A stretch of 60,008 bases of DNA from an uncultured Cryomorphaceae bacterium (lineage in GTDB: Bacteria; Bacteroidota; Bacteroidia; Flavobacteriales; Schleiferiaceae): positions 1 through 60,008 of the forward strand of contig CAJWFD010000011.1 of assembly GCA_913031435.1 (NCBI GenBank), given 5' to 3'. Below the pieces are notes generated by a model. That model did no database searches and was not told the origin of the DNA. It was given only the letters and a program-made list of their open reading frames with translations. Positions 2,764 to 13,210 of the stretch are shown piece by piece. Each line of letters begins with the position of its first letter. Position 1 is the first letter of the stretch. A program made the position numbers and the translations under genes.

Positions 2764-4329
2764 ATGAAAAATTTCGTTTTACTCTTCTCACTATTGCTTT
2801 TAACTTCTTGTAATCAAGGGGATGTTCCATTTTATTTAGCGGAAAACGGAATTACTATAAAAGCAAAGGATTCTGTTTTTGTTGGGGATCAGGCTATGAT
2901 CAACGGTATAACTTATACCTTGGTTAATGATAGCTTAATACAAGAGATTAGAGCTCAGGGGTGGAGTGATAATTCTTTTATCAATGACTCCTGTCAAATA
3001 GTTACATCATTAGTGACGGATATGTTTAATCTATTCGATGACGCAAGCTCATTCAATCAAGATATTGGCAGTTGGGATGTGAGCAACGTGACTAATATGA
3101 GCTATACGTTCCGAGGTGCAAACGTATTCAATCAAGATATTGGGAATTGGGATGTTAGCAACGTGACTAATATGAATCATATGTTCGGTGGCAGCGAGGT
3201 GAACCTCAGGGTGCACGGCAGCGCAAGCGCATTCAATCAAAACATTAGTAATTGGGATATGAGTAATGTTAATGATATGACTGGGATGTTCAGTTACGCA
3301 ACCTCATTCAATCAAGACATTGGAAATTGGGATGTCAGCAATGTGACCAATATGTCTAGTTTGTTCTATAATGCTAGTTCATTCAATCAAGATATTGGTA
3401 GTTGGGATGTGAGTAATATCACTTATATGGGAGAGATTTTCTGTAAAGCAAGTTCATTCAATCAAGATATTGGCAGTTGGAATGTGAGCAACGTGACTAA
3501 TATGAATTATATGTTCTACAGAGCAAGTTCATTCAATCAAGACATTGGTAGTTGGGACGTTAGTAATGTGATGGGAATGGTTAGTATTTTCGATGGTGCA
3601 ATTTTATTCAATCAAGACATAAGTGGTTGGGATATCAGTAACGTGAATGATTGGGGTAATTATGGGTTTTCTGCGAATATACCGCAGGAGATGAAAAATA
3701 TTTTCCCCAAAATATTCATTGATTTCTCAGAGAAAGCGCACATAGTTCATACGGCATACTCAGCCTCTGATGGGTATAAAGTTCTCATTTCTTCAGAGCA
3801 ATTTATTCCTGAGGGATTTGATAGCCTTTTTACTAAAAGAGAGGGTGAATTAAGAGATTATATTTTGGATAACTATGACACGATTTCTAAAAAACAACTG
3901 GCTCAAGAAAACCATGACTTTAAAAGTGCGGATTCAAACAGTCAATATAATTCTTGGACTCAATATTTTGAGGGTGGTATATCCCAGACATCTACAACAA
4001 GTTCGGTTTATTTCGACTATGGTGAAGACGAAACTGGTTATCTAGTTTATGGCGATTATGGGAGGGGTGAAGAGATTTTTCAATTCCCTAAAATCCCAAC
4101 CGAAATGGCAAAATTATTAGTAGCAAGATTTTATCCTGCGGATAGCAAACCAATTAGCTACGAAAGTTTTGATAACGCCTGGTATGAAACTAAAACTAAT
4201 GGGACGGTAACCATTAGTTATCAGTGTCCGAATTGGGATGATAAACCATATGAACAACGATATCAAATAATTCAAGATGAATTATACACGACAATCAAGA
4301 TTGTTAATGGTTATGCTATCCCAATGTGA
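2764..4329 (+). CDS. BspA-like (DUF285) lipoprotein, paralog 2
   Basis: 521 residues: lipoprotein signal with Cys16 (LLTSC), a head domain (about 21-86) almost identical to paralog 1, eight DUF285 units (87-296) and a C-terminal domain (about 297-521) with no counterpart in paralog 1. The C-terminal part contains [13 protein letters not shown] and a Gly/Tyr/Asp-rich segment ([16 protein letters not shown]). I do not recognise its fold. Unit 3 is 35 rather than 25 residues because of a 30-bp GC-rich in-frame insertion (3193-3222). The gene follows paralog 1 by 98 bp with a partly duplicated upstream region, which points to a tandem gene duplication followed by exchange or divergence of the C-terminus. 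Confidence 0.85.
3022..3651 (+). repeat. Eight tandem DUF285 coding repeats
   Basis: Repeats of 75 bp encoding 25-residue units with core [16 protein letters not shown]. The third unit is extended to 105 bp by an insertion. Unit boundaries fall at the Met that starts each M-x-x-(M/L/I/T)-F segment. Confidence 0.85.
3193..3222 (+). repeat. 30-bp GC-rich in-frame insertion in a DUF285 unit
   Basis: Unit 3 of paralog 2 carries ten extra residues ([10 protein letters not shown]) between MFGG and ASAF. GGCAGCG occurs at both edges (3190-3196 and 3217-3223), and GAGGT-GA-ACCTC inside forms a 5-bp inverted repeat. Its base composition is far more GC-rich than the surrounding AT-rich gene. It could be a small palindromic element or a local slippage product. 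Confidence 0.6.
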
Positions 4330-4485: not shown

Positions 4486-4519
4486 AAAAAAAAGCACCTA
4501 CTCTTTTGAAGTAAGTGCT
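4486..4519 (-). terminator. Terminator of the tRNA-Arg transcript
   Basis: Read on the minus strand, a 10-bp stem with one G-U pair (4519-4510 with 4502-4493) is followed by a T-tract (opposite the A-run at 4486-4493). It lies directly downstream of the tRNA gene. Confidence 0.75.
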
Positions 4520-4528
4520 TTAGTCTTG

Positions 4529-4602
4529 TGACCGAGATAGGAGTCGAACCTATAACCGCTTGATTCGTAGTCAAGTACTCTATCCAGTTGAGCTACACGG
4601 CC
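4529..4602 (-). tRNA. tRNA-Arg (anticodon ACG)
   Basis: 74 nt including the discriminator A. The cloverleaf can be drawn by hand: D stem GCTC/GAGT, anticodon stem CTTGA/TCAAG closing the loop CTACGAA (anticodon ACG, Arg), five-base variable region, T stem ATAGG/CCTAT with loop TTCGACT. The acceptor stem pairs except for a T-T mismatch at position 6:67 and a G-T pair at 2:71. The 3' CCA is not encoded. The accessory BspA block lies on its 3' side. Confidence 0.93.
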
Positions 4603-4728: not shown

Positions 4729-4998
4729 CTATTGGATTTCAACAGTGAGGCCTACATCAGACATCAAGCTGGCCTTAGATTTTAATTTCTCAAATGGACC
4801 TGTTAAGACCTGGCACTTTCCTTTATAATGGGTGATCCAAGCGCATTGCTCAGCCTGCTCCTCCGAATGCTCACAAACGGAACAAAGTACATCTATAACA
4901 AAATCAAAAGAATTCTCTTCGTCATTGAATAATATCAAGGAATGCTCTTTCTCAAGCACCGTCTGCGACTCCCTTAAAACCTCTTCCTTAGTATCCAT
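4729..4998 (-). CDS. clpS: ATP-dependent Clp protease adaptor ClpS
   Basis: 89 residues, the usual size. ClpS binds N-degron substrates (bulky hydrophobic N-termini) and delivers them to the ClpA/ClpC-ClpP protease in the cytoplasm. The core is recognisable: LILFNDEENSFDFVIDVL (21-38), where Asn25-Asp26 correspond to the substrate-pocket Asn-Asp of E. coli ClpS, and His57 in THYKGKC corresponds to the pocket histidine. The short polar N-terminus is typical. The Clp ATPase is not in the window. A -7 element (5003-5010) ends only 4 bases before the ATG, so the mRNA may be leaderless. Confidence 0.9.
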   Translation of the reverse strand: MDTKEEVLRESQTVLEKEHSLILFNDEENSFDFVIDVLCSVCEHSEEQAEQCAWITHYKGKCQVLTGPFEKLKSKASLMSDVGLTVEIQ

Positions 4999-5071: not shown

Positions 5072-8000
5072 CTATTCTTCTATGCCGAATCTACGTTTTA
5101 GGAGCATTACTTTCCCTTTACCGGCAAGATTGTAAGTGAAGGCAGCCTGATTTTTTTTAGCAGCAATGCTTCGATCTTTGGTTTTTTTTGCAAGAATAGC
5201 ATCATTGAAAGCATCGTCACTACTTCGAATACTCATGACTATTCCCTTAAAACTCATATAAATATAATCAGTTCCGTTGTCTAAATAAATAATGAACTCG
5301 CTACCTCTACGGCGTTCCTTGAACTCTATGAGCCCATTTACTTTCGCAAATACGGGGACATTGTAAATGTTTTGAATTATAGCATCTCCCTCACCGATAA
5401 AGCTTTTGTAGCGACTGTTGTATTCGAGATCTACGGCACTAAGTACTAGACTTTTCCGCATCTCTTTTGGAAACTTACCTTCCACTTCATGGGTAGCTAT
5501 CTCCTCTAAAAACTTACCACCAGATTTTTGGCCCATTAATGCATATATACCCTGACTATATGCTTCATCATCAGATCTCGAGGAACCACTTCCGTCCGCG
5601 AATAACTGAGCCACTGCTTCCCATGCATCTTTATCTAATGGAGCGTCTATGGTCCATACTGCATCTATCGAAATATCATCTTTATTCAGGTCATGACGCA
5701 CAGCACCTCCCATAGTAGTCGTCACTGCTCCCGATTTCTCCATCACATTTACTTTACCCGTTCCGTACAAATCGCAATCATAATTGTGGAAGACTAAGTA
5801 GGGATCTGGTAATGTGAAATCTCTGAGTTTCTCAACCGTAGTAATCACGTAACCATTTTCTTCATGGTCAAAGAAAAGCACACCGTTAGCGGAGAGCATT
5901 TCTATATCAGCACGATCTGCATACTTAGAGAGGAAATTACTATGTCCTCCTAAGCTATCCTGAGAGATATAGATACCATTAAACGTGTTGTCGCGTAGCT
6001 TTGTTGGGTCGTTTTCGGGCAGCTCGATCACGATGTCTGTCGGATCAATGAAACTGGCTATATCATACCACGTCGTCTGTAAATTTCTACACTCATTTTG
6101 AATGAGAATAGAGCCTTTAAAAAACATAGGTTTTTGATCAGCAATCAGCTTTACGCCACCGCGATATCCAAAGTAGGGACTTAAGAAGAAATCATCTTTC
6201 TCCTCCAGTGTCGCCAAACCAATCGTAGTTCCAGCTGTATCTGGCTTGATACTTTCGAACTTAATTGGCAACGTACTTCCTTCTTCATCGACATAGTCAT
6301 ACATCCCTATGGCAGTGTAGCTGTATTTACCCCGAATACGTGTCGTAGCGTCATAAAAACTATGAAGCTTACTGTAGCGATTGGCCTGAATAATTGAACG
6401 CTCTAAAGGATCCATGTTTGCGTTCATGCGGATCACTACATATCCGCTATCCGGTAGCACGCGTGAATCAGCTACTTCAATTTCGGACACCTCAAACGCC
6501 TCAAGAACGCTTTGTGATAACGCAAATCTCGCATAACCAGCTGTGAAATCTAAACTGTCCTGAAGAGGATGCGTACTTACCATATAAGCCTCGCCTTCAG
6601 TATTGTGCTTAACATCTACGGTCGCTTTTTTCATGTCCCATAGTGCATGGTCCATGTAAGCCAGGTATTGGTTGGCCGGGAATTCTATAGTACTGTAGGT
6701 GTCAATTTTATCGAAAATCCCTTGCTGCTTTTCAAAGTCAACCTCTGCAGTCGAATTTAGCATTTGAAAAGCCCATTGCTCTTCAGAAAGACTTGTCTTT
6801 ACCCTGAAGTCTTGATCAGAAGAAACAAAGGAACGGTGGAAGAATTCGTAACCTTCCTGTTCACTAATGTGTTTTGCCGTCGAATAACGCAACTCACCTG
6901 TCCCGAAAAGTCCCTGCGTACCATACGTTAATTCACCCTGGGCTACGACGTTCTGTGAGCCGTACATATCAAACGGCACTTTCCTACTTCGTGCTTTAAT
7001 GAAATTAGAATAAGGAACCCAATTAAAGGGGTTGTCCACTCCCGAAGAAGAGGGATAGCCATTTCCGTTTGTATTTTCAGTAATCACAAACGTGCTGGCC
7101 CTTCCTGAAGCTTCATCTGGAAAGAACAAAATATCAGGACTGGTAACGATACTTTCTAAATAGTTAATGGTTCCATTTGCATGTAACCCCTGGTTTGATA
7201 GATCCAAGGTCCCTGTATAGATTCCCGTATTTTTATAAGTGGGAGCACCAGGCATAGTCGTAGAAAACCCCAGGGAGTAATCTGGCATCACACTCAAAGG
7301 TTGTCTAAAAACAGGGAATATATCTGCACTTTGGAAGGTCGCATCGAATAGTATACCGTCGGTGGTAGTATTATCTAAGGAATCGATAGTAAAGGGCTCT
7401 AAGGCCATGAAAAATCTCGACCTATCGTAGATTCCATTATGAATTTTACGATCATCGTAATACACATAGGAATTATTCAAGGCCTCGAAAATAGGATACT
7501 CAGGGTAGTACTTACGAGACGATTTATTGTCCGACATATCTATGAGCAACTGGCCCTGTAAGTCCTGTAGGACAGTTTGTACATCGACTAATGCCGCGCG
7601 TTCACCAGGCGTTGGGTTAAACTCCTTAACCTTGAAACGCATGGAGTCAATCTTCGGCATATCTACCTTAAACGAAGTATAATCGAACGTGTGATTTTCA
7701 CCCCAATAACTAAATAAACCCGCATTAATACGGCCATCAAACTTGAAATCCATCCCCTTTTGAACGGTGATTTTTCCACCACGCGGAAATAAATTTACCT
7801 GTTGGGAATCACTTACAGCGATGCGTGAAATTCCAGCAATATCCATTTCATAATTTAATAAGCTCACCTGGGCATTGTTGCCTTGAGGAATACGAGAAAC
7901 AAATTGAATAACATCATAATCTCGTTCTCCTTGCCAGTTCTGTAGATATTCAAAAAGTTTGTCGGTCAGTGTGATGGTTTGTGCATCAACATCAAAATCT

Positions 8001-9460
8001 ACAAACCCCTGAATGGCCATCTCAAACAAAAAACGTTCTCCCTGCTCCTTAGGCATTCGGAGTGCATAAGTCAGCTCACGTAGGGGCATACTTTCATATC
8101 CATAAGAGTAGGCCGCGTCACGCAACTCTATCAATGGGTGTGTCTGCTGCAAACCGGCTATCTGCTCCATTCTAGTGATTCGGAAGTATTGACGACTTTC
8201 AAATACGGCTGCCTGCTCTGATCCCAAATTTAAATTTCGGAAATTCAATAAGGGTGTGTTTTGGTTCCAAACTAATTGGTCTACATTAATGTCCATCGCA
8301 TGGTAAGAATCCGTAAACGATGAAAGTCCTAAACCAGTTTTATATCTTATGATTCTTACTTGACCAACGCGAGGATCGTAACGCATTTCACAATACGGAT
8401 GAAAAATACTATCAGCGCCCAAATGGGCAGTGACCCCCACCCTCTTGGAAGAAAGTAAGCTGTCCTTGAAAGCAAATCTCCCACTCTTTAAGGTAATGAT
8501 GGTATCACCTTTATAAGTGAACTGTACCCTCGCCATGGCGCTATCCGGTGCAAGTCCATAAAACTGAGATCCCACCACACCTAGACCTCCTCTAAAATGC
8601 ACTTGAGGGTAAACATTAGGTAAAAGGAAATTATTTTTATAGCTCGAGAATCTGGGGAATTCAGCATTCTTTACAGCACGTGCACTTAACCTTTCCTCAA
8701 ACAACCCAACGATTGGTGCATCATAGAGCTCTGGTGCATGTAAAATTGCCGTGTCCGCCCTGAAGTAACCTTGTTTCACGTCGAGCTCCCATGCATCGAG
8801 TTCTGCAAAGAGTAGATCTTCAGACTTACCAACCCTGCCCCAAAACACCGTACCTCCCATGGCCTTTAAGATCGCTTGCTCAGGGAAAAAGCGAGCTGCT
8901 GTTGTCATGATTATGGTACTGTCTGACTTATAAATACCTATAATATCTCCTTCATCTATGGTAAATACCGGTTGGCCATCTTCAAAGTTCAAAGACCACA
9001 GACTGTAGGGTGCCTTCCATACAAGTCCACTATTCTCAGCAAAATAATGCTTGACCTCGTTAAGGTGAAATTGATGAATATATTTTTTGACTTTAGAAGA
9101 TGGATTCCTTTTTGCATATCCATTTAAGTGCTCGATCAGGCTACCTAAAGTCGAATATTCTTCATTTTCACTAACGAATGAAATCAATCTAAAGAGTTCT
9201 TCCCAATGCTTTGGATCAGAAATTCTTTTACGAATAAGGTGGTTGCTAAGGGCCAGCCAATGTTCTTCTGAATCTGCATCTATAGCAAACTGCATAGCAG
9301 GCAGTAGTGAATCTTGAAATAATGATTTTTGATCTTTACTTAGCTCTATGAGCTGGACGAATTCCTCTGTGAAAAAATCAATGGAAGAGAACCGAGTTAC
9401 CTTTTGCCCAAGTACGGGCAGTGATAGTAATAATACCAAAAGCAACCCTAATCTTTTCAT
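5072..9460 (-). CDS. Giant secreted protein of unknown function (1462 aa)
   Basis: I do not recognise this protein. It has a clear Sec signal peptide (MKRLGLLLVLLLSLPVLGQK), an alpha-helical region to about residue 150 (short helices rich in Leu/Glu/Lys), then more than 1200 residues that look almost entirely beta-structured. Recurring patterns there include short strands ending in Gly/Asp turns and phrases such as FDGRINAGLFSYWG and FKGSILIQNE, which suggest a long repetitive beta-solenoid or stacked jelly-roll. It has no transmembrane barrel signature, no C-terminal sorting domain and no catalytic motif. The ATG lies one base after the prmA stop, so it is probably translated from the same operon mRNA. 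An envelope or periplasmic structural role is inference only. Confidence 0.8.
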   Translation of the reverse strand: MKRLGLLLVLLLSLPVLGQKVTRFSSIDFFTEEFVQLIELSKDQKSLFQDSLLPAMQFAIDADSEEHWLALSNHLIRKRISDPKHWEELFRLISFVSENEEYSTLGSLIEHLNGYAKRNPSSKVKKYIHQFHLNEVKHYFAENSGLVWKAPYSLWSLNFEDGQPVFTIDEGDIIGIYKSDSTIIMTTAARFFPEQAILKAMGGTVFWGRVGKSEDLLFAELDAWELDVKQGYFRADTAILHAPELYDAPIVGLFEERLSARAVKNAEFPRFSSYKNNFLLPNVYPQVHFRGGLGVVGSQFYGLAPDSAMARVQFTYKGDTIITLKSGRFAFKDSLLSSKRVGVTAHLGADSIFHPYCEMRYDPRVGQVRIIRYKTGLGLSSFTDSYHAMDINVDQLVWNQNTPLLNFRNLNLGSEQAAVFESRQYFRITRMEQIAGLQQTHPLIELRDAAYSYGYESMPLRELTYALRMPKEQGERFLFEMAIQGFVDFDVDAQTITLTDKLFEYLQNWQGERDYDVIQFVSRIPQGNNAQVSLLNYEMDIAGISRIAVSDSQQVNLFPRGGKITVQKGMDFKFDGRINAGLFSYWGENHTFDYTSFKVDMPKIDSMRFKVKEFNPTPGERAALVDVQTVLQDLQGQLLIDMSDNKSSRKYYPEYPIFEALNNSYVYYDDRKIHNGIYDRSRFFMALEPFTIDSLDNTTTDGILFDATFQSADIFPVFRQPLSVMPDYSLGFSTTMPGAPTYKNTGIYTGTLDLSNQGLHANGTINYLESIVTSPDILFFPDEASGRASTFVITENTNGNGYPSSSGVDNPFNWVPYSNFIKARSRKVPFDMYGSQNVVAQGELTYGTQGLFGTGELRYSTAKHISEQEGYEFFHRSFVSSDQDFRVKTSLSEEQWAFQMLNSTAEVDFEKQQGIFDKIDTYSTIEFPANQYLAYMDHALWDMKKATVDVKHNTEGEAYMVSTHPLQDSLDFTAGYARFALSQSVLEAFEVSEIEVADSRVLPDSGYVVIRMNANMDPLERSIIQANRYSKLHSFYDATTRIRGKYSYTAIGMYDYVDEEGSTLPIKFESIKPDTAGTTIGLATLEEKDDFFLSPYFGYRGGVKLIADQKPMFFKGSILIQNECRNLQTTWYDIASFIDPTDIVIELPENDPTKLRDNTFNGIYISQDSLGGHSNFLSKYADRADIEMLSANGVLFFDHEENGYVITTVEKLRDFTLPDPYLVFHNYDCDLYGTGKVNVMEKSGAVTTTMGGAVRHDLNKDDISIDAVWTIDAPLDKDAWEAVAQLFADGSGSSRSDDEAYSQGIYALMGQKSGGKFLEEIATHEVEGKFPKEMRKSLVLSAVDLEYNSRYKSFIGEGDAIIQNIYNVPVFAKVNGLIEFKERRRGSEFIIYLDNGTDYIYMSFKGIVMSIRSSDDAFNDAILAKKTKDRSIAAKKNQAAFTYNLAGKGKVMLLKRRFGIEE

Positions 9461-9461
9461 T

Positions 9462-10292
9462 TTACTTGGTCATTTTAATGCTGCGCCACTGTTCTCGAGA
9501 TTTAACCCCATGATAGGTCAGTCCTGCTAATTCAGCAGCCTCACGCAAAGCAGGTATATTCTCCTCATAAAATCCGCTGAAGAAAATGGTTCCTCCCGAA
9601 GATAATGCAGAAGCATAGCTCTTCATGTCAGCCAACAAGACATTTAAATTAATGTTAGCACATATTACCTCGTAGATATCTGACAAAGCACCAGCACCTC
9701 CAACCTCAGCAGTCATTTCTACATTATTTCGCTGCGCATTTTCTAAGGTGTTTTCAATACACCAAGTATCGATATCAATTCCATGTATCGCAGCGGCGCC
9801 ACGCATACCTGCGAGAATACCTAAAATTCCTGTACCACAACCCATATCAAGCACTTTCAGTCCTTCTGTTGGTGTTTCCAGTAGCCATTGAATCATCATG
9901 TGCGTGGTTTGGTGGTGACCCGTACCAAACGACATTTTAGGCTCAATGAGCATAGGATATTGATACCCTGTTTTATTCTCGTGAAATGGTGCTCGGATAT
10001 AAACTACACCGTCTACATCAATGGGGTCGAAGTTTTTCTCCCACTCTGAGTTCCAATTTACTTGCGCAATTTCTTTCACACCATACGTGCATACAGCACC
10101 TTCCCAAACCAGAGCCTCATCCATCGCAATTTTGGAATAGTCTTCCTTAACGATATATGCGTTAAAGCCATCCACAGTCTCTGAAAAGCTCTCAAATCCG
10201 ACGGCACCAAGCTGAGCAATGAATAAATCTCTAAAGGGCTCTAAAGGTGATACCTTCGCGGCAATTTCAATATAAATGGGAGTTTGTGACAT
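9462..10292 (-). CDS. prmA: Ribosomal protein L11 methyltransferase
   Basis: 276 residues. PrmA trimethylates ribosomal protein L11 using S-adenosylmethionine. The N-terminal substrate-recognition domain is followed by MSFGTGHHQTT (120-130), a PrmA signature, and the SAM-binding motif VLDMGCGTGILG (148-159); ANINLNVL is the family motif IV. The start codon overlaps the tpiA stop (TAATG), so the two are translationally coupled. Association with tpiA is common in Bacteroidota and carries no clear functional message. Confidence 0.93.
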   Translation of the reverse strand: MSQTPIYIEIAAKVSPLEPFRDLFIAQLGAVGFESFSETVDGFNAYIVKEDYSKIAMDEALVWEGAVCTYGVKEIAQVNWNSEWEKNFDPIDVDGVVYIRAPFHENKTGYQYPMLIEPKMSFGTGHHQTTHMMIQWLLETPTEGLKVLDMGCGTGILGILAGMRGAAAIHGIDIDTWCIENTLENAQRNNVEMTAEVGGAGALSDIYEVICANINLNVLLADMKSYASALSSGGTIFFSGFYEENIPALREAAELAGLTYHGVKSREQWRSIKMTK

Positions 10293-11062
10293 TATGCCTT
10301 CGTTCTAGCTTCAATAATTGCTGTAAAATCTGCAACATTCAACGAAGCTCCACCGATCAATCCGCCATCTATATCTGCCTTTGCAAAAAGCTCCGGTGCA
10401 TTACCTGGTTTGCAAGAACCACCATATAAAATAGTTACGTTATCTGCCGTTTCTGTATCAAATCTCTCTGACAACCAGCCGCGTATTCCAGCGTGTACAT
10501 CCTGAGCTTGTTCAGGCGATGCCGTTTCTCCTGTACCTATCGCCCATATCGGCTCATACGCAAGAATAATATTGTCCATATCCTCAGAAATGAATCCCTC
10601 TAAACCTGCTATACATTGTGCCAAAATGACCTCCATGAATTTACCACTTTGACGCTCTTCAAGGGTTTCACCCACACAGTAAATAGCTGCCAATTCGTTG
10701 TTTAATGCCTGACTGATCTTTGCATTACAAGCTTCATTTGTTTCACCGAAATACTGACGGCGTTCACTATGACCAATGATGATTGCATCAATATCTAGCG
10801 AAGCGAGCATAGGAGCACTAACCTCACCGGTGTATGCGCCATTTTCCTCTTCATGACAGTTCTGTGCAGCCACGGCGATAAACGCATTATCCACTAAGGA
10901 TTCTACGACATCACTCAAATACAAAGAAGGTGGAGTGATAATAACTCCAGTTTCGCCAACTACCTCTTCGGTTAAGACAGACTTTAATCCTTCTACCAAT
11001 TCCATAGCTTCATGGAATGTTGTATTCATTTTCCAATTTCCGGCGACAATTCTTCTTCTCAT
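10292..11062 (-). CDS. tpiA: Triosephosphate isomerase
   Basis: 256 residues, full length. It interconverts dihydroxyacetone phosphate and glyceraldehyde 3-phosphate in glycolysis and gluconeogenesis. All active-site elements are visible: Asn9/Lys11 (GNWKMN), catalytic His98 (IIGHSERR), catalytic Glu170 (AYEPIWAIGTG) and the phosphate-binding YGGSCKPGN. It sits in a minus-strand run with the permease upstream (28 bp) and prmA downstream (1-bp overlap). Confidence 0.97.
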   Translation of the reverse strand: MRRRIVAGNWKMNTTFHEAMELVEGLKSVLTEEVVGETGVIITPPSLYLSDVVESLVDNAFIAVAAQNCHEEENGAYTGEVSAPMLASLDIDAIIIGHSERRQYFGETNEACNAKISQALNNELAAIYCVGETLEERQSGKFMEVILAQCIAGLEGFISEDMDNIILAYEPIWAIGTGETASPEQAQDVHAGIRGWLSERFDTETADNVTILYGGSCKPGNAPELFAKADIDGGLIGGASLNVADFTAIIEARTKA

Positions 11063-11090: not shown

Positions 11091-12098
11091 CTAAAATAAT
11101 TCAGACCTTACCCTAGGATCTAGCCAAGCGTAGAGGACGTCCACGAGGGTAGTTAATAAGACGAAAATAAAGGCTATGACGAGCACACACCCCATGGTTA
11201 TGGGCAAATCTCGGGTATTTAATGCTTCAACCAATAGTTTTCCCATCCCATTCCAACCAAAAATAATCTCTACAAACACCGCTCCAGCAAGTAGTGAAGC
11301 AAACCAACCTGAAATGGTGGTAATGATAGGGTTAGACGCGACGGGTAAGATATGTCTTAAAAGTACTTTTCGCTCGGGTAGTCCCTTTGCCCTAGCAGTC
11401 CGAACAAAATCCTTGGCACTCACCTCTAAAATACTTTTTCGCGTTAATTGGACGATCACTCCAACCGGCCGAATACCTAAAGTAAGGGCAGGTAAAATTA
11501 GATTCTTAAGACTAAGGGACTGTTCCCCTGTGTAGTCATCCACAGTAAACAAAGAACCTGTTAGATTCAACCCGGTATATGGGCCTAAGAGAAAAGCAAA
11601 AATCCACGCAAACAGAACCGCAGTGAAAAATGATGGAAGACTCATACCTATCGAGCTAGTCGCTAAAAGAAAACCATCCAATTTAGTGCCTTCATAATAT
11701 GCCGCAATGGTACCCAGAAACATTCCTACCAAAACAGCAAAACTTATAGAAACTGCAGCTAATAAAGCGGTATTCGGAAAAGTACTCGAAATCAAATGCC
11801 CTACACGCTGGCCTTGACGCTGGTAACTTTCTCCAAAATCTGGAGTTTTAAAACGGAGACCAGTTTGCCATCCTATCGGGGAAACGCGGTGCAGGTAGTT
11901 TACATATTGAATATGTACGGGTTGATCTAAACCATATTTCGCACGAACTGCAGCAAGCGCTTCAGGGTCTTCTCGTTTTCCAAGCATCATCTGGGCACTA
12001 TCTCCCGGTACTATAGTAAACAAAAAGAAAATCAAGGTAGCCACTCCCCATAGCGTAAGAAGGCCTAATCCTGTTTTCTGAAGTGCAAATCGAATCAA
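11091..12098 (-). CDS. ABC transporter permease, DppB/OppB type
   Basis: 335 residues. The N-terminal segment, FFLFTIVPGDSAQMMLG, is the classic start of oligopeptide/dipeptide/nickel permeases of the OppB family, and the EAA-like loop (RTARAKGLPERKVLLRH) contacts the ATPase. About six membrane helices can be seen. Such permeases work as heterodimers with an OppC partner plus two ATPases and a binding protein. None of these partners is in the window, so this gene is an orphan here. Its start overlaps the upstream gene by 4 bases (ATGA), so the pair is coupled. Confidence 0.9.
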   Translation of the reverse strand: MIRFALQKTGLGLLTLWGVATLIFFLFTIVPGDSAQMMLGKREDPEALAAVRAKYGLDQPVHIQYVNYLHRVSPIGWQTGLRFKTPDFGESYQRQGQRVGHLISSTFPNTALLAAVSISFAVLVGMFLGTIAAYYEGTKLDGFLLATSSIGMSLPSFFTAVLFAWIFAFLLGPYTGLNLTGSLFTVDDYTGEQSLSLKNLILPALTLGIRPVGVIVQLTRKSILEVSAKDFVRTARAKGLPERKVLLRHILPVASNPIITTISGWFASLLAGAVFVEIIFGWNGMGKLLVEALNTRDLPITMGCVLVIAFIFVLLTTLVDVLYAWLDPRVRSELF

Positions 12099-13210
12099 TG
12101 TGGGCTATCGTTATAATGGTATTTATGAGCTACAACACCCTTTCTAAGAACTACCCAACCAGGATTAGATCTTACCATTGTCTTAAGAGTTGTCTCATCT
12201 GTAAAAGCAAAAGGTGCATCAGTAGGGAGTCCTAAAGCATGTAATTCTTCTGGCATAGAAGCAGACATTACTAGATAAGGGGTTCCCGCTAACGACAGGT
12301 CATTAACGGTGGGTAATACGTTAGCCCAACCTTTTTCATTCGTTTTAGCTCGGTTATATGCGACTAGCAACCAGACTTCGTCTAAATTCAAAATACTATC
12401 CGTCCAATCGCCATAATCACTCATTATACTAAAATCATGTACAGGAGGTTCATAGCCCTCACTCACTTTTGTCGTCCGGGATAAATCCGCAAGCATGGTC
12501 CAATCCGTCTTTTCCCACCATTTTTGATCTATGTATGTTTTAGATGTTATTTCCTGGCGCTGTCCCGCAGCATTTTCCATGGTGTAGACCACCTCGTATT
12601 GGGGAGGCTCGAGACCAAGCTCCTCAGCGGGCTTCATTCCTTCCGCTATACTCAATCCTTCTGCATAGGGACGAAAGTCCTCTACGGGCAAATGATTGAT
12701 CACGTGATAACTAAACCATGCACACAAAACGGGTATGGCTACAAGATTGATTTGGACAAGAAGCTTGGGCCAACCACTGAAAATTCTACTTTCACCCCAC
12801 CACAATACTAGAATTAGTATCGATAGAATAACATCTTTGTAAAAACTCTCCCATGGCTTGAGTGGTATTGCGTCGCCAAAGCAACCGCAGTCCGTTACCT
12901 GGTTAAAATATGCGCTCCAAAAAGTCAAAAAGGTAAAGAACCCAATCATTGCGCTCAGCAGTATCAACACCCATCTTTTCCAAAAACCCAAAAGCAATGC
13001 GGCGCCTAATAAAACTTCAACAATCACCAAAATAATTGCCAACGGCAAAGCAAGTGGCTCTAAAAAAGGTAAGTTCAACACTTCCGAACTAAAGTATTCT
13101 TCAAGCTTAAAACTAAAACCTACAGGATCGTTCATCTTGACCAGGCCTGAGAATATAAACAGTCCACCGACAAGGAATTGAGTAAGTCTAGTTAGAAATG
13201 ATTTGAACAT
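12095..13210 (-). CDS. BT_3928-like DoxX/MauE family membrane protein
   Basis: 371 residues. The N-terminal half is a four-helix DoxX/MauE-like membrane domain (about 8-130) with the cysteine pair in TDCGCFGD (Cys108, Cys110). A further helix follows, then a periplasmic C-terminal domain (about 190-371) with a possible thioredoxin-like pattern near the end (LSLAGTPYLVMSASMP). The family is widespread in Bacteroidota and usually sits between DUF1599 and tpiA genes, as here. A role in envelope redox or disulfide chemistry is possible but unproven. It overlaps the permease by 4 bases and follows DUF1599 by 12. Confidence 0.8.
   Translation of the reverse strand: MFKSFLTRLTQFLVGGLFIFSGLVKMNDPVGFSFKLEEYFSSEVLNLPFLEPLALPLAIILVIVEVLLGAALLLGFWKRWVLILLSAMIGFFTFLTFWSAYFNQVTDCGCFGDAIPLKPWESFYKDVILSILILVLWWGESRIFSGWPKLLVQINLVAIPVLCAWFSYHVINHLPVEDFRPYAEGLSIAEGMKPAEELGLEPPQYEVVYTMENAAGQRQEITSKTYIDQKWWEKTDWTMLADLSRTTKVSEGYEPPVHDFSIMSDYGDWTDSILNLDEVWLLVAYNRAKTNEKGWANVLPTVNDLSLAGTPYLVMSASMPEELHALGLPTDAPFAFTDETTLKTMVRSNPGWVVLRKGVVAHKYHYNDSPH

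Follow-up and report, generated by a model that had tools for sequence, protein, structure and literature searches.

A giant, probably envelope-located exported protein retained in most sampled genomes of one Bacteroidota class

An uncultured Cryomorphaceae bacterium carries, in the window analysed here (the whole stretch of 60,008 nucleotides), a gene for a giant protein of roughly 165 kDa that appears, from its sequence, to be exported to the cell envelope and to fall outside all families tested. The gene, here called X, is under purifying selection, strong where measured, and is best explained as encoding a core, long-kept, Sec-exported envelope protein of one large Bacteroidota class. Searches of Pfam, NCBIfam, PADLOC, PHROGs and PDB sequences gave no whole-protein family for X or its orthologs; no relative was found on viral contigs, and a literature search found no paper on the protein. 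The original prediction, of a giant exported protein of unassigned function in a core operon with neither a recognisable catalytic site nor an anchor, holds up, and no confident match to a characterised family arose in the family scans. It had missed the winged-helix domain and the duplicated beta module described below.

The gene, its neighbours and its export signal

The ORF of gene X was originally placed at its exact position; its strand, the minus strand, had been left unsaid (Table 1). It runs for 1462 codons without a stop. A plus-strand reading of the same interval was rejected on account of its 71 stops. Near-complete orthologs number 84, with lengths mostly of about 1360-1500 aa. Compared over 597 residues with a 91%-identical relative, the gene gives dN = 0.046 and dS = 0.87 (ratio 0.05), and 192 of the 258 changes lie in third positions. 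The stop-free length, the orthologs and this ratio together exclude a chance ORF. One copy is present in the source genome, a 1.83-Mb draft.

Table 1. Features of the gene X region (window coordinates; residue numbers refer to the X protein).
Feature	Position	Strand	Basis or remark
tRNA-Arg(acg), last gene of the run	4528..4602	minus	
Terminator-like hairpin and T run, strong, closing the run	4491..4521	minus	
clpS-like gene, directly downstream of X	4729..4998	minus	
Gene X, exported protein, 1462 aa	5072..9460	minus	ORF, orthologs, selection
Sec signal peptide, residues 1 to about 19, Q-rule cleavage next to ..LGQ	9404..9460	minus	sequence
N-terminal helical domain, residues 24-150	9011..9391	minus	composition, low-confidence model
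Module A, residues 270-573, broken by winged helix	7742..8653	minus	self-alignment with module B
Winged-helix domain inserted in module A, residues 438-512	7925..8149	minus	profile and structure matches
Partial third copy of the module's first half, residues about 735-800	7061..7258	minus	profile self-comparison
Module B, residues 813-1017	6410..7024	minus	self-alignment with module A
Cys1124, co-conserved with Cys1229	6089..6091	minus	ortholog counts
Cys1229, co-conserved with Cys1124	5774..5776	minus	ortholog counts
Conserved C-terminal domain, residues 1335-1462	5075..5458	minus	weak match to PH-like UCH_N only
prmA (ribosomal protein L11 methyltransferase)	9462..10292	minus	Pfam PF06325; 1 bp upstream of X
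tpiA (triosephosphate isomerase)	10292..11062	minus	Pfam PF00121
ABC-type transporter permease	11091..12098	minus	Pfam PF00528
MauE/DoxX membrane protein	12095..13210	minus	Pfam PF07291, PF07681

X lies in a gene run ordered tpiA-prmA-X-clpS-tRNA-Arg, in which prmA overlaps tpiA; Pfam identifies both of these neighbours, bearing out the placement first proposed. The gene directly downstream is one that we take to be clpS-like from its characteristic ClpS sequence, not from a family scan. Orthologs often occupy the same place elsewhere in the class: prmA directly precedes X at most loci of the order, often within a doxX-permease-tpiA-prmA-X series, and prmA or tpiA adjoins X at 11 of 19 loci in the wider class. 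At 22 of 87 loci, X is followed after 5-160 bp by plsY, a same-strand gene of phospholipid synthesis (glycerol-3-phosphate acyltransferase, PF02660, checked on one copy). Four genomes of family f3 and one of family f4 have prmA and then the clpS-like gene with no X between them, and one of these five keeps doxX-permease-tpiA-prmA-clpS, which is the same gene run minus X. Strict co-inheritance of X and PrmA is not claimed, because the distances of the two proteins correlate weakly (0.30).

Elsewhere in the window, two neighbouring and similar DUF285-repeat proteins (PF03382) with lipoprotein-like N-termini are encoded on the plus strand (1343-2665 and 2764-4329). By the look of it, this pair is a recent tandem duplication.

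The signal peptide already recognised in X recurs among its relatives. A hydrophobic stretch is found at the N-terminus of 82 of the 84 orthologs and is followed by [AGS]Q in 77 of the 84, a combination that fits the Q-rule for exported Bacteroidetes proteins (PMC10653852). A lipobox is found in none of the 84, and no clear membrane-like segment was found in the ortholog sequences beyond the N-terminus. X is best described here as a protein that is probably located in the cell envelope. The two conserved cysteines are present together in 75 orthologs and both absent from nine, with no ortholog having a single one, a pattern that suggests a disulfide between Cys1124 and Cys1229.

Domain anatomy

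The helical head of the original prediction is confirmed by composition and by a low-confidence model, and has no family match. Composition also agrees with the beta-rich body proposed behind it, but the models are too poor to show the strands. AlphaFold models made with a shallow alignment (six nearest homologs) have pLDDT values of 34 and 28 and show no folded body; besides the head, the winged helix is the only better-folded part.

The presence of a winged helix within the body of X, at about residues 440-510, is well supported. The segment has the helix-helix-helix-strand-strand pattern of the winged-helix superfamily. In a PDB profile search, a profile built from 62 orthologs hits IclR and MarR structures at this position (best E = 3.5e-4), and single orthologs match many winged-helix Pfam families (best 9.3e-6). 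Foldseek, applied to the winged helix of the AlphaFold model, returns MarR and IclR with a probability of about 1, at modest E values of 0.015-0.2. In pattern, family and structure matches the domain is like the IclR and MarR winged helices (PF09339, PF22979); it differs from them in lying inside a beta module of an exported protein and in being without the IclR/MarR ligand-binding or dimerisation parts.

Family-profile self-comparison shows modules A and B to be copies. When the winged helix is cut out, the A-B score rises to 95-97, with E down to 4e-14, while 40 column-shuffled control profiles gave 14.7 +/- 2.2 (maximum 20.7). Because the score rises once the winged helix is removed, the latter is an insert in module A. 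Judged by these profile scores, a duplicated beta module within X is well supported, and what had been termed a repetitive architecture comes down to a single large internal duplication together with an incomplete third copy. The modules may possibly have a known fold. At the other end of the protein, the C-terminal 128 residues resemble PH-like UCH_N (PF16674) weakly: 4 of 41 orthologs gave a match, the best at E = 3.4e-4, and no solved structure matched this domain well.

Some orthologs depart from the usual length. Those of family f7 (L054-L058) are short, 1015-1040 aa, and all five are without the region of the conserved Cys pair; in L054, L055 and L056, for which a block-by-block map was made, the sequence does not continue past module B. 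That the f7 proteins (about 1020 aa) end just behind module B is in keeping with a domain boundary there. Most of the five are followed by a large exported-looking protein. Three long orthologs (L081-L083, 1561-1857 aa) are without the Cys pair; in two of them, L082 and L083, the 150-440 region is enlarged and the C-terminus is extended by over 120 residues with no known domain. Among the longer orthologs as a group (1555-1857 aa), no extra known domain was found.

Distribution

By single-sequence search, X turned up in 87 of the 196 genomes examined from the order and, for the class, in 244 of 295; even genomes as small as 1.1-2 Mb retain it. Orthologs outside the genus are about 20-40% identical, and the named relatives are metagenome genomes labelled mostly Flavobacteriales or Cryomorphaceae. 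A 33-row profile also gave no X in any of the genomes sampled from families f3, f6, f16, f47, f50 and f55, nor in single genomes of further families. A phylum-wide sample contained X in 10 of 247 genomes, but it is made up mainly of X-less families and so gives no phylum frequency.

Most sampled genomes of the class keep X, yet no family library names it. From their size and number, we infer that f3 and f6 correspond to Flavobacteriaceae and Weeksellaceae; absence from these and some other families may explain why X was overlooked. As a lineage-wide orphan in a housekeeping gene run, X is like other conserved hypothetical proteins of Bacteroidota. It is unlike them in being unusually large and in having a demonstrated internal duplication and insert domain.

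Possible roles in the envelope

We tentatively favour X as an envelope-biogenesis scaffold, with no catalytic part of its own in the building of the outer membrane. We infer its mechanism as a commitment, not a demonstration: X would reside in the periplasm or on the inner side of the outer membrane, its Cys1124 and Cys1229 joined in a disulfide; the long body with its repeats would act as a platform or conduit, most likely for traffic in lipids or outer-membrane components; and the winged helix would dock other proteins rather than bind DNA. Such traffic is favoured because of the plsY neighbour and, weakly, because X-less genomes more often have a second TamB gene. The plsY linkage may simply reflect the housekeeping gene run. 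As to TamB, two genes were counted in 13 of 30 X-less genomes and in 4 of 66 X-bearing ones (p = 3e-5, a hand count in which related genomes are not independent); taken by family, the figures are 5 of 10 and 4 of 36 (p = 0.015), again inflated by relatedness. The X-less genomes with this tendency belong to families f3, f6, f47, f50 and f55. The second TamB copy aside, presence of SprA, MlaD, OstA or TamB does not track X. In these bacteria TAM has been studied as a factor of outer-membrane biogenesis; F. johnsoniae cannot do without TamB and TamL, whereas TamB2 and TamL2 are dispensable, with no role known for them, and deletion of tamB2 causes no growth defect (PMC12045153). Since that deletion is harmless to growth, and since TamB, OstA, AsmA and MlaD are found both in genomes that have X and in genomes that lack it, the second-TamB count is weak evidence.

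PF04357, the TamB C-terminal domain, had no match in eleven X-bearing genomes of the order (G008, G011, G017, G022, G024, G034, G036, G043, G045, G052, G053), which belong to families f8 and f11 plus one f2 genome and several of which are 97-99% complete. TamB was reported in all 30 Bacteroidota species examined in the published survey (PMC12045153); in the genomes without a match it is either lost or too diverged.

A possible, if doubtful, alternative gives X a structural part in the envelope, as a scaffold or as a tether (for example from peptidoglycan to outer membrane), with no transport role. The same exported modular anatomy would serve such a function, and X belongs to no enzyme or transport family; however, family scans found no known peptidoglycan-binding domain in X, and the plsY linkage would be left unexplained. 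It seems unlikely that X aids the assembly or export of outer-membrane or type IX-secreted proteins. Its presumed periplasmic location and the presence of SprA in most X-bearing genomes of the order would agree with such a role, but X is absent from f3, f4 and f6 genomes that do have SprA. Because SprA occurs both with and without X, the latter does not count among the core components of type IX secretion. No NCBIfam or Pfam match to a T9SS C-terminal sorting domain was found at the C-terminus of X.

The original prediction had likened X to AsmA/TamB-like solenoids or LPS-transport jelly rolls, a likeness that found no support. Like TamB and AsmA-like proteins (PF04357, PF05170), X is very large, beta-rich and presumably periplasm-facing, and of similar length (TamB of these bacteria is mostly 1400-1700 aa); like the OstA/LptA/LptD jelly-roll proteins (PF13100), it is exported and has repeated beta segments. 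Yet Pfam gave no match to PF04357 in X or 32 orthologs, and none to the AsmA (PF05170) or OstA (PF13100) domains in X or its orthologs. Profile-profile comparison with TamB, AsmA and OstA, in which the TamB and AsmA rows were truncated at the ends of their loci, gave probabilities below 5% for every segment (about 1-2% for OstA, the jelly-roll family compared); a TamB-AsmA control was detected by the same method, mainly through a short stretch. By sequence X also has a cleavable signal peptide and no sign of the uncleaved N-terminal inner-membrane anchor. Moreover, the source genome (G000) encodes its own separate TamB, OstA_2 and AsmA-like genes, the AsmA-like one below the family cut-off, and X co-exists there with a true TamB. 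While a structural resemblance to these proteins is conceivable, that X is a hidden member of either superfamily, too diverged for sequence profiles, is quite improbable. Action on DNA in the cytoplasm through the winged helix, for all its resemblance to IclR/MarR regulators, is very hard to credit for one 75-aa domain in a 1462-aa beta-rich protein with a signal peptide in nearly all orthologs and a co-conserved Cys pair.

A bolder form of the platform or conduit reading, rather unlikely in full, would make X the founder of a new type of core machine in the envelope, with a duplicated, previously unseen beta module and a winged helix as periplasmic docking domain; this exported platform or conduit would carry out a step in outer-membrane building that X-less lineages might cover by, for example, a second TAM. 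If X does work in outer-membrane building, it would be a core envelope part absent from the usual model species.
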